Positions 8,583-28,265 of a DNA stretch of 37,752 nucleotides are shown here, piece after piece. This stretch comes from Clostridia bacterium (GTDB taxonomy: Bacteria > Bacillota > Clostridia > Oscillospirales > CAG-272). The translations under genes and the position numbers were made by a program. Below the pieces are notes generated by a model. It saw only the letters and a list, made by a program, of their open reading frames with translations, was not told the origin of the DNA and did no database searches. How positions within the stretch are numbered: the stretch's first letter is position 1; each line of letters begins with the position of its first letter. The stretch lies in NCBI GenBank assembly GCA_017501005.1, contig JAFVXT010000160.1:1-37752 (forward strand), read 5' to 3'.

Positions 8583-10067
8583 TTATGCGCGGTTCTGTGC
8601 ACTCTTGCCGAGGATCTTGCGGTAGGCCGCTTCCCGGGCTTCCCAGGCGGCGGTATCCTGCGGCTCGTAGATCATGGGCTCAATCGAATTCTTGATGACC
8701 TCGCGTGCGGCTTTGACGTTTTCAATCTCACCGAGGGCAATCAGCTGCACGGCCACGTTACCCATGACGGTGGCCTCGATCGGGCCTGCGACAACCGTGA
8801 TGCCGGTTGCAGCGGCGGTCAGGCGGCAAAGCAGGGTATCCTTGATACCGCCGCCCAGCATATTGATGCAGGCGTACTTCTTGCCCGTGACCTCGGAGAG
8901 CGTCTGAATATTCATGCGGTACTTCATGGCAAGGCTTTCGTAGATACAGCGCATGACCTCACCGCGGCTTTGCGGGACGTACTGCCCCGTGACCTCGCAG
9001 AAGCGGCGCACGCGGCCGGGCAGGTCGCCCGAGGTCTCAAATTCGGGGGCGTCGCAGTCGATAAAGCATTGGAAGGGCTCGGCTTCGAGTGCTTCACGCT
9101 CAAGGTCGGCATAGCTGACCTGCTCGCCCTCGCGGATCCACTGGCGGCGGGATTCCTGAATCAGCCAAAGGCCGATGATATTCTTTAAGAAGCGCGTGGT
9201 GCCCGTGTGGCCGCCCTCGTTCGTATATTCGACCTCGTAGCTCTTTTCGGTGCGGAGCGGTGCTTGCAGCTCGGTGCCGAAGAGGCTCCACGTACCGCAG
9301 CTGATGCAGGCAAAATCGCCTTCAGCGGGGGCGGAAGCAAAGGCGGAGGCGGTATCGTGCGTGCAGACGGCGATGACGGGAATGGGATCGCAGTCAAATT
9401 CCTCGCAAAGGGCGGGGGTGAGCACGCCGTAGCTTTCGCCGGGGCGAATGATCTCGGGCAGAATGCGGGTGGGAATACCCAGCTTTTCAAGAAGCTCATA
9501 GCAGAAGGTACGCTTTTCGGGATCGAAGAAGTTCGAGGTCGAAGCGATGGTCTCCTCAGCGCGGCACGCGCCTGTGAGCATGTAGGCAATCAGGTCGGGT
9601 ATGAAGAGCATGGTTTCTGCCTGCTCGAGCAATTCGGGGCGGCGTGTTGCCAAATAATAGAGCTGATAGAGGGTATTGATACGCATGGTCTGCGTACCCG
9701 TGAGGGCATAAAGCTCGCGCTTGGGGATCTTTTCGAAGACCTCCTCGGGCATACCGACGGTGCGCTCGTCACGGTAGTTGACGGGGTTGGCAAGCAGCTC
9801 GCCGTGCTTGTTGAGCAGACCGAAGTCAACGCCCCATGTATCGATACCGATGGCATCAACGGGACCTGCCTTGACTGCCAGATTGATGGCGGTCTTGACC
9901 TCGTGGAAGAGGCGAAGGATATCCCAATACATACGATCGCCAACCTTGACGAGATCGTTTGAGAAGCGGTGGATTTCGGTGATTTTGATCTGACCGTCAA
10001 TATATTCGCCGATCATTGCGCGGCCGCTTGACGCGCCAAAATCAAATGCAAGAACCTTCTTTGCCAT
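8583..10067 (-). CDS. rhaB: Rhamnulokinase
   Basis: This FGGY-family sugar kinase phosphorylates L-rhamnulose at C1 using ATP. The 494-residue protein starts AKKVLAFDFGASSGRAMIGE, the first phosphate-binding loop, and contains DAIGIDTWGVDFGLLNKHGE, the sugar-site strand typical of RhaB. The second ATPase half has VIAVCTHDTASAFASAPA and later CINMLGGGIKDTLLCRLTA. A strong AAAAGGAGATAGCACAC site precedes the ATG at 10067. It is first in its operon, behind a 17-bp-spaced promoter at 10112-10140. The expected third step, rhamnulose-1-phosphate aldolase, is not encoded anywhere in this window. Confidence 0.96.
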   Translation of the reverse strand: MAKKVLAFDFGASSGRAMIGEYIDGQIKITEIHRFSNDLVKVGDRMYWDILRLFHEVKTAINLAVKAGPVDAIGIDTWGVDFGLLNKHGELLANPVNYRDERTVGMPEEVFEKIPKRELYALTGTQTMRINTLYQLYYLATRRPELLEQAETMLFIPDLIAYMLTGACRAEETIASTSNFFDPEKRTFCYELLEKLGIPTRILPEIIRPGESYGVLTPALCEEFDCDPIPVIAVCTHDTASAFASAPAEGDFACISCGTWSLFGTELQAPLRTEKSYEVEYTNEGGHTGTTRFLKNIIGLWLIQESRRQWIREGEQVSYADLEREALEAEPFQCFIDCDAPEFETSGDLPGRVRRFCEVTGQYVPQSRGEVMRCIYESLAMKYRMNIQTLSEVTGKKYACINMLGGGIKDTLLCRLTAAATGITVVAGPIEATVMGNVAVQLIALGEIENVKAAREVIKNSIEPMIYEPQDTAAWEAREAAYRKILGKSAQNRA

Positions 10068-10097: not shown

Positions 10098-10124
10098 TAT
10101 TTGATATCTCTATTATAGCAAATA
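10098..10124. promoter_or_regulatory. Candidate operator dyad over the rhaB -10 box
   Basis: A 27-bp imperfect palindrome has perfectly paired 6-bp ends, TATTTG and CAAATA, and three more inner pairs; 9 of 13 positions are symmetric. It covers the -10 element and start region of the rhaB promoter, a position where repressor binding would block transcription. The regulator is not encoded nearby. Confidence 0.5.
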
Positions 10125-10140
10125 AAATGCCGTTTGTAAA
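10112..10140 (-). promoter_or_regulatory. Sigma-A-type promoter of the rhaB operon
   Basis: On the minus strand the -35 is TTTACA (10135-10140) and the -10 is a perfect TATAAT (10112-10117) with a 17-bp spacer. The distance to the rhaB ATG is about 45 bases. Confidence 0.85.
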
Positions 10141-10254: not shown

Positions 10255-10294
10255 ATAGAATGGTGAAAAAGAAATCGAAAAAAGGAGGCAGGCC

Positions 10295-11149
10295 ATGCAA
10301 GTGCCCTTCACCGCCATGCAAACGCTTTCCCGCCATTTTCTGCTCGCACCGATGGGTGAAGAGGCGCGCGGGCCATTGGCACTCCGTCTGCTCGGACGGC
10401 AGAGCGGCGTGCGTGCCGAGGGGCTTGTCCTTTACGAATGCGAGAGGCTTGCCGACGGCACGTGTCTTTTCGGCGCGGAGGAATACACGGCGTTCGGTGA
10501 GCGCGTGCCCCTTTCGGCCGACGGTGCACGCACGCTCGGCGCGCATTTGCAGGGCCGTGAGGAAACGCAAGCCAAAACCGTGCGCATTCTGTCAAGCGGC
10601 GAGATCAAAAGCGTGAGTCTGCAAAATGAAGCGGACGGCTCGCTTCATTTTGCGGTCAGGCTGCCGCCGTCTCTCTTTGATCCCGATCACGTGGGACTGA
10701 CTGCCACATCCCCCTTGCTCGGGCAAAAGATCCCCTTGGGTACGGCCTCACTTCCCTTCTATGCGCTTGCGCTCGGCGCGCGCTCCTTTGCCGTCTGCTT
10801 TCGGTTCGGCACGTCGCTTGCCGAGCTGCGCCCCGCTTCAATTGCCCTGCCCCTTTCTGTCAAGCGGCTCTTTTCCCGCCCCTTTGAGGCCGTCTTTGCC
10901 GAGATTGTGGGGGAGGACGCGCTTTCGGTGCGCATCTTCGAGCCATCGCTCGGTGAGCTTGACGCGTCAAGCGAGGGAGCGGCCGCCGCCGTTTCGGTGG
11001 CGCACCTGCTGGGGCTTTTGCCTGTCGCATGCGCATTGCGCGTCAAGATGCGGGGCGGCACGCTTTTCGTCCGTGCCGACTATCTCGGTGCGCCAATCTC
11101 GGTTGCAGCCGAAGTGCAGCACTGCTTTGACGGCAGAACGGAGATCTGA
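10295..11149 (+). CDS. Diaminopimelate epimerase-like protein lacking both catalytic cysteines
   Basis: The 284-residue protein follows the DapF fold end to end in my manual comparison with remembered H. influenzae DapF. FTAMQTLSRHF matches the start (DapF FSKMHGLGNDF). ALRLLGRQSGVRAEGLVL matches the next strand. VPLSADGART aligns with the first catalytic motif QCGNGARC, and LDASSEGAAAAVSVAHLLGL aligns with [20 protein letters not shown]. Both catalytic cysteines are thus serine (Ser74 and Ser225), and the substrate Asn/Asp of GNDF is also gone. Epimerase activity is therefore unlikely; a structural, regulatory or diverged role is possible. GGAGG sits six bases before the ATG, and the gene stands alone with its own terminator. 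True dapF is presumably elsewhere. Confidence 0.7.
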   Translation: MQVPFTAMQTLSRHFLLAPMGEEARGPLALRLLGRQSGVRAEGLVLYECERLADGTCLFGAEEYTAFGERVPLSADGARTLGAHLQGREETQAKTVRILSSGEIKSVSLQNEADGSLHFAVRLPPSLFDPDHVGLTATSPLLGQKIPLGTASLPFYALALGARSFAVCFRFGTSLAELRPASIALPLSVKRLFSRPFEAVFAEIVGEDALSVRIFEPSLGELDASSEGAAAAVSVAHLLGLLPVACALRVKMRGGTLFVRADYLGAPISVAAEVQHCFDGRTEI

Positions 11150-28036: not shown

Positions 28037-28265
28037 TGTTTTGCCTCCTTTTTCTTACTTTGCATGGGGGCGATACATTGTACACTGTGCCGGGAGAATC
28101 TTTGCGAGTCTGTAAAAAGCGGGCGCCGTCTGCCGCACAGACATAGCCCATTTACATGCTGACTCACGCCGATCCTTCGGCTGCTGTCGCCCGTTTCATC
28201 GGACATACTCCACGAAAATTCCCCGTGTTTTCCACGGCAACCTCTCGCTTCATCGCATATCAAGC
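28037..28265 (-). promoter_or_regulatory. Long structured leader of the S10 ribosomal operon
   Basis: The predicted transcript start near 28265 leaves about 230 untranslated bases before rpsJ. Local hairpins include GCCGA/TCGGC (28168-28181) and GTCTG/CAGAC (28128-28142). CGGGCG (28188-28193) can pair with CGCCCG (28120-28125), which is followed by CTTTTT on the minus strand, an attenuator-like layout. ACAGAC/GTCTGT (28108-28142) is an alternative pairing that excludes the 28128-28142 stem. A regulatory leader is inferred; its ligand is unknown. Confidence 0.55.

Follow-up and report, generated by a model that had tools for sequence, protein, structure and literature searches.

A DapF homologue without catalytic cysteines in a Clostridia genome that encodes Ddh: a putative pseudo-epimerase

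The window (the whole stretch of DNA that was analysed, i.e. the 37,752 nucleotides of contig JAFVXT010000160.1 from a Clostridia bacterium) carries an intact gene for a divergent homologue of diaminopimelate (DAP) epimerase, DapF, in which both catalytic cysteines, and nearly all other active-site residues, are replaced, in a genome that also encodes Ddh. The gene has probably been retained for something other than the original reaction, and it seems that there is about an even chance that the cell keeps this protein, as a pseudo-epimerase, for non-catalytic binding, which the switch to Ddh would have allowed. The name pseudo-epimerase is used here as a description of the sequence.

Results

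The gene and its surroundings

The reading frame runs from ATG to TGA without internal stops (Table 1). The first-pass annotation had described an intact gene with a strong ribosome binding site and a terminator of its own, of which the open frame and the ribosome binding site are plainly present, whereas the hairpin downstream of the stop codon is weak evidence for a terminator, because the scan that found it returned 4 terminator-like sites versus 2.8 expected from shuffles, i.e. close to chance. In a consensus scan, promoter-like sites between positions 10000 and 11400 numbered 4 versus 0.3 expected, which is no evidence for function. The hairpin on the reverse strand lies in the likely leader and may stop transcripts coming from the rplQ/His_Phos_1 side, which, unless ended, would cross the DapF-like gene in the antisense direction.

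The gene is flanked by FGGY kinase and RhaA genes on one side and by His_Phos_1, L17 and RpoA genes on the other, and these neighbours point to no binding partner. Genes for dapL, dapB and lysA are absent from the neighbourhood, the lysine operon being located on another contig. A match to the neighbouring His_Phos_1 gene occurs in 31 of the 69 genomes of the genus (E <= 1e-20, best identity about 54%). Elsewhere in the window, an S10-Clostridia ribosomal protein leader is found at 28187-28262 (reverse strand, 48.1 bits).

Table 1. Positions of the DapF-like gene, its residues and putative signals in the window, and of the cca-linked DapF paralogues at their own loci
Feature	Position	Strand	Basis
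DapF-like gene, 284 residues, without catalytic cysteines	10295..11149	+	Open reading frame and homology
Ribosome binding site AAGGAGG, 6 bases before ATG	10282..10288	+	Sequence reading
Promoter-like TTGATA-16-TAAAAT, candidate promoter of the DapF-like gene	10101..10128	+	Consensus scan, 10/12 matches
Terminator-like 20-pair hairpin and T run, between candidate promoter and start codon	10212..10254	-	Hairpin scan and sequence reading
Terminator-like hairpin and T run, about 126 bases past the stop codon	11276..11297	+	Hairpin scan, count near chance
Arg35, equivalent to DapF Arg36 (dimerisation), kept	10397..10399	+	Alignment with PDB matches
Ser74 (TCG), replacing catalytic Cys73, just ahead of predicted helix 75-85	10514..10516	+	Alignments, model
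Glu216, equivalent to Glu208, sole active-site position of 13 kept	10940..10942	+	Alignment
Ser225 (TCA), replacing catalytic Cys217, just ahead of predicted helix 226-238	10967..10969	+	Alignments, model
Phe278 at DapF Tyr268 (dimerisation), conservative change	11126..11128	+	Alignment with PDB matches
Divergent DapF paralogue downstream of cca, 9/13 active-site residues (G003)	L166 5984-6808	+	
Divergent DapF paralogue downstream of cca, 2/13 active-site residues (G037)	L064 4572-5441	-	
Divergent DapF paralogue downstream of cca, 0/13 active-site residues (G104)	L063 4194-5030	+	

Homology and fold

The NCBIfam model TIGR00652 matched the window protein over residues 5-281 (E 5.2e-6) with 26.1 bits, which does not reach its curated cut-off of 114.65, and the match to Pfam PF01678 was limited to residues 199-259 (E 0.0014, 19.2 bits, below the cut-off of 34.7). 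Alignment with 12 DapFs of the order by hhalign gave 97.8% and E 7e-13 over 276 columns, and an HMM built from order-level DapFs scored the protein at 77.6 bits (E 7e-25), in agreement with the end-to-end alignment of all 284 residues with DapF that had been made by eye in the first-pass annotation. In a sequence search of the PDB, the top matches were 2q9j (E 3.9e-9) and 2q9h (E 5.3e-9), the titles of which identify them as the DapF mutants C217S and C73S, respectively; PhzF was absent among the PDB sequence matches. Judged by these alignments, the window protein is a true full-length homologue of DapF, though a weakly matching one.

AlphaFold failed on the single sequence (pLDDT 30.8) and gave a modest model when three sequences were supplied (pLDDT 57.6, pTM 0.46). 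Foldseek ranked DapF structures first for this model (E 5.3e-15, query TM 0.55-0.64), with rows 1-26 all being DapF or O-ureidoserine racemase and PhzF appearing only from E 4.5e-9. A DapF fold, for which the first-pass annotation had proposed this kind of check, is thus indicated chiefly by homology and modestly by the model. Membership of the PhzF, proline racemase or hydroxyproline epimerase branches was considered as well, and both the sequence and the fold searches favoured DapF.

Active site and dimer residues

For the active site of DapF we take 13 positions (Asn11, Asn64, Cys73, Gly74, Asn75, Asn157, His159, Asn190, Glu208, Arg209, Cys217, Gly218 and Thr219), of which Asn11, Asn64, Asn157, Asn190, Glu208 and Arg209 bind the substrate. 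The two serines that the first-pass annotation had placed at the catalytic cysteines do align with Cys73 and Cys217, and the Asn/Asp that it had noted as gone near residues 13-14 is indeed replaced by Arg/His, but the loss is wider than it had claimed, since 12 of the 13 positions are changed and, of the six substrate-binding residues, Glu208 alone is kept. Among the changes are those of two conserved motifs, GNDY to SRHF and GNPH to GARS. Over columns with a conservation of at least 95% across 23 ordinary standalone DapFs, 26 of 64 positions outside the active site are kept, compared to 1 of 13 within it (Fisher p 0.027). The scaffold has thus been preserved better than the pocket, which is erased, although the p for the contrast is only 0.027. 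Of the residues involved in dimerisation, one is kept and one is conservatively changed (Table 1); in E. coli DapF, the double mutant Y268A/R36A is reported to lose both the dimer and activity (PMC7144940).

The DAP pathway in the genome and the genus

The genome carrying the window, labelled G000, is a MAG of 1.45 Mb that is 92% complete. It encodes Ddh on contig C119 (429 bits), and its lysine operon on contig C77 consists of dapA-dapB-lysA, without dapF or dapL, compared to dapA-dapB-dapF-dapL-lysA in G003 and G045 (the neighbouring genes dapA, dapB and dapL, like cca, carA, argF and argD below, were named through NCBIfam). The interval between dapB and lysA is thus empty in G000, as it is in G035 and G036, holds dapF-dapL in G003 and G045, and is occupied by ddh in G002.

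Within the genus, DapF was detected in 17 of 69 genomes (in 16 of them above the cut-off) and Ddh in 51, which by a count made by hand, over MAGs many of which are incomplete, divides into 14 genomes with DapF only, 48 with Ddh only, 3 with both (G000, G025 and G056) and 4 with neither. Ddh and DapF are therefore nearly mutually exclusive in the genus. A separate canonical dapF, for which the first-pass annotation had proposed a search, was not detected in the 92% complete MAG, the sole other DapF being a CarB-fused domain without Cys73; at this completeness, an ordinary dapF could be absent from the assembly. Gene content suggests that meso-DAP in G000 is most likely derived from Ddh, with DapF being dispensable. 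Given the loss of the active site and the presence of Ddh, DAP epimerase activity of the window protein is almost certainly both absent and unneeded.

Relatives of the window protein

No orthologue was found in a protein search of 98 relative genomes, 44 of which had a match at E <= 0.001, near-full-length at 20-27% identity or, in a few short cases, at up to 35%. The same holds for 394 genomes of the order, where 117 had matches at E <= 1e-7, all at 20-27% identity barring the query itself, and for 395 genomes of the family searched with a three-sequence profile (E <= 1e-33), where the 4 matching genomes held the profile's own three members and, as L158, an ordinary DapF; both sets are samples of larger groups, and in some genomes these searches scored a capped number of first-look candidates. 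Neither the genus set of 69 genomes, nor 118 stretches of a genome contig collection (1 weak match of 37 residues, in Bacillus sp. SG-1), nor 7 stretches from IMG/VR contained an orthologue, and plasmids and phages gave no match at E <= 0.001.

Relatives were compared in a table and a tree of 50 rows, i.e. the window protein and 49 relatives picked from loci (leaving out duplicates, the partial L050, the fused L030, L048 and L052, which were duplicate rows or, for L052, contained an in-frame TAG, and hits without a locus). The ordinary standalone DapFs in the table have Cys/Cys in 23 of 23 cases, and no relative with the Ser/Ser pattern, the conservation of which the first-pass annotation had named as support, was found; the alignment of L062 at Cys217 is ambiguous. 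With an end branch of 10, the window protein could not be placed by the tree. A standalone DapF of 336 residues in G008 (L066 2098-3108, reverse strand, contig C31) has an insertion past the N-terminal strand and retains 13 of 13 active-site residues, yet has a very long branch.

The CarB fusion of G000 with its C-terminal DapF domain (L067 4093-8127, reverse strand, contig C100) is a frame of 1348 residues, the DapF domain of which has Gly at Cys73, retains 12 of the 13 active-site residues, Cys217 among them, and exceeds the DapF cut-off. Among 22 tabulated fused copies, Cys73 is missing in 17 (being Ala, Gly or Ser) and Cys217 is kept in 21, while all 11 copies tabulated from the genus, including that of G000, miss Cys73. 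Here, 'fused' refers to copies with a long frame upstream. The CarB portion was confirmed for L067, L106 and genus members rather than for each order-level row, and for L018 the confirmation extends to the C-terminal part. Another such fusion, in G008 (L106 933-4964, reverse strand, contig C40), is preceded by argD, argF and carA, and that of G032 (L052, contig C10) contains one in-frame TAG. Frames of comparable length recur across other families of the order, and unfused CarB is also present in several genus genomes. No paper describing a CarB-DapF fusion was found in the literature, the papers listed being on Corynebacterium mutagenesis and on diatom amino acids. A clade of the window protein and the CarB-fused copy of G000 was not rejected (p 0.447), in a tree in which the placement of the window row is unusable.

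G003, G037 and G104 each carry a further paralogue downstream of cca, on the same strand as cca and with an open frame, besides an ordinary standalone DapF. CCA tRNA nucleotidyltransferase is the best NCBIfam family for all 4 cca proteins compared and is above the cut-off in 1 of them; in G000, nothing DapF-like lies next to cca (C94). The three paralogues show that other genes of DapF descent have seen their active site erode while their frames stayed open. Scored with an HMM built from these three, the window protein had 28.7 bits, at the low end of what 25 triples of ordinary DapFs gave (25.4-64.6, mean 50.3), although such triples are less diverse than the three; adding the three to all others raised the HMM score of the window protein from 70.7 to 83.3. 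The AU test returned p 0.466 for a clade of the window protein with two of them, in a tree unable to place the former. A separate origin of the window protein and the cca-linked paralogues is the simpler reading, though some kinship, with the window gene as a cca-linked paralogue that has moved, is conceivable.

Constraint on the gene

In simulations, an ordinary dapF that had drifted neutrally to 35% identity, which equals the fraction of conserved columns retained (27/77), still had an open frame in 0, 3, 2 and 9 of 400 runs at a G+C of 0.50, 0.55, 0.63 and 0.70, respectively, and after drift to 50% identity in 4, 4, 8 and 17 of 400, divergence being guided by the conserved columns, with indels and partial constraint outside the model. 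The G+C of the window gene at codon positions 1, 2 and 3 is 0.69, 0.50 and 0.70, and no set of 300 drift runs, for any of three starting genes at either of two G+C values, had more than one run that matched both contrasts between the positions; the contrast of position 3 minus position 2 alone was matched in 17/300 and 10/300 runs from the G045 gene. On the other hand, the share of Ala, Gly, Arg and Pro is raised to 0.36 in the window protein, whereas 45 standalone and fused DapFs average 0.276 and reach 0.325 at most; such a rise is as expected if constraint is relaxed in a G+C-rich genome. No orthologue was found against which purifying selection between species could be gauged. The drift simulations, although rough controls, speak for constraint as a protein.

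Discussion

Following these results, a sequence of events can be proposed. Once Ddh was available, DapF catalysis would no longer have been under selection, after which the dapF-dapL pair would have been lost from the lysine operon, while a divergent DapF copy may have been retained to act without catalysis, most likely by binding a protein partner in the manner of a scaffold or regulator, with the DapF fold, and probably the dimer, being kept and the chemistry being lost. E. coli DapF without its cysteines still binds and stimulates RppH, showing that the fold need not catalyse to be of use. The first candidate partners would be the CarB-fused DapF domain of G000 and a Nudix enzyme. The suggestion of the first-pass annotation that this is a pseudo-enzyme or a protein with a new role thus gains from the loss of the active site, the apparently undecayed frame and the presence of Ddh, as far as the pseudo-enzyme is concerned, whereas the new role stays a proposal. 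A broader version, in which the clade turned spare DapFs, after the arrival of Ddh or beside an intact DapF, into non-catalytic adaptors (the window protein and, separately, the cca-linked paralogues) acting in RNA metabolism or CarB control, with no part in amino-acid turnover, is one that we regard as quite improbable.

The gene could also be a dapF that Ddh released from selection and that now drifts without having been broken so far, which we consider rather unlikely but the most serious of the alternatives. The Ddh gene, the empty orthologue searches and the drift towards G+C-rich residues are all as expected from it, and several odd DapF copies occur in the genus (L060, L061, L062 and L063), but an open frame with such a codon-position G+C contrast is unexpected after so much neutral change, the ribosome binding site is intact, and conserved positions survive better outside the active site than within it. 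Alternatively, the fold may have acquired a new reaction on a different substrate, with Ser74, Ser225 and/or Glu216 acting as acid-base groups. Serines stand at both helix heads and Glu216 is retained, and PhzF, which has the same fold, works with an active-site glutamate. Several chemistries are hosted by the fold according to the Foldseek matches (O-ureidoserine racemase, PhzF, hydroxyproline epimerase and 3-hydroxyproline dehydratase), to which can be added a reported histidine racemase with a DapF-like fold (PMC11602996) and a reported cofactor-independent racemase in which one catalytic Cys is replaced by Thr (PMC8142540). Against this, the whole pocket is altered, motifs included, rather than just the two bases, the searches prefer DapF itself to PhzF or hydroxyproline epimerase, and no relative with a shared new pocket motif was found, which makes a new reaction unlikely.

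That the protein still works as an epimerase or racemase, its active site merely being less strict, is hardly credible, even though the fold is kept: both cysteines and nearly all of the listed active-site residues are missing, DapF with both cysteines changed to alanine reportedly gives no conversion of L,L-DAP (PMC4227774), and Ddh is able to make the product. The pseudo-epimerase kept for binding is the reading that we prefer.

What is new here is a DapF paralogue, to all appearances catalytically dead, in an organism that has Ddh; the literature covered, which left most subscription journals aside, held no account of a DapF pseudo-enzyme, the paper that mentions both the epimerase and pseudoenzymes being on a colourless protist. 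Within the lineage, a natural series runs from intact DapF via one-cysteine CarB fusions to copies without an active site, beside a clean replacement by Ddh, which makes it directly testable whether a catalysis-independent job of DapF survives the loss of catalysis.

Comparison with known systems

Compared to DapF as defined by TIGR00652 and PF01678, the window protein is alike in its full-length alignment, its predicted fold, the serines preceding helices and the Arg/Phe at Arg36/Tyr268, but it differs in having Ser/Ser, in its changed active site, in scoring far below the curated cut-offs and in being encoded outside the lysine operon. It has serine at the same positions as the PDB entries 2q9h and 2q9j, which, however, are single engineered substitutions that leave the rest of the active site intact. 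The CarB-fused DapF domain likewise lacks Cys73, as in the other genus copies, whereas it keeps Cys217 and most active-site residues and scores above the DapF cut-off. The cca-linked paralogues are also DapF-derived, with open frames and with active sites reduced to various degrees, but sit downstream of cca, which the window gene does not. The closest functional analogue may be the DapF-RppH pair of E. coli, in which DapF with both cysteines changed to alanine is reported to lose epimerase activity and still to bind and stimulate RppH, an RNA pyrophosphohydrolase (PMC4227774), and in which the DapF dimer is reportedly unnecessary for RppH activation as well (PMC7144940). The likeness would lie in a role of the DapF fold for which both cysteines are unnecessary, with the difference that E. 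coli DapF is an active enzyme with a second job.
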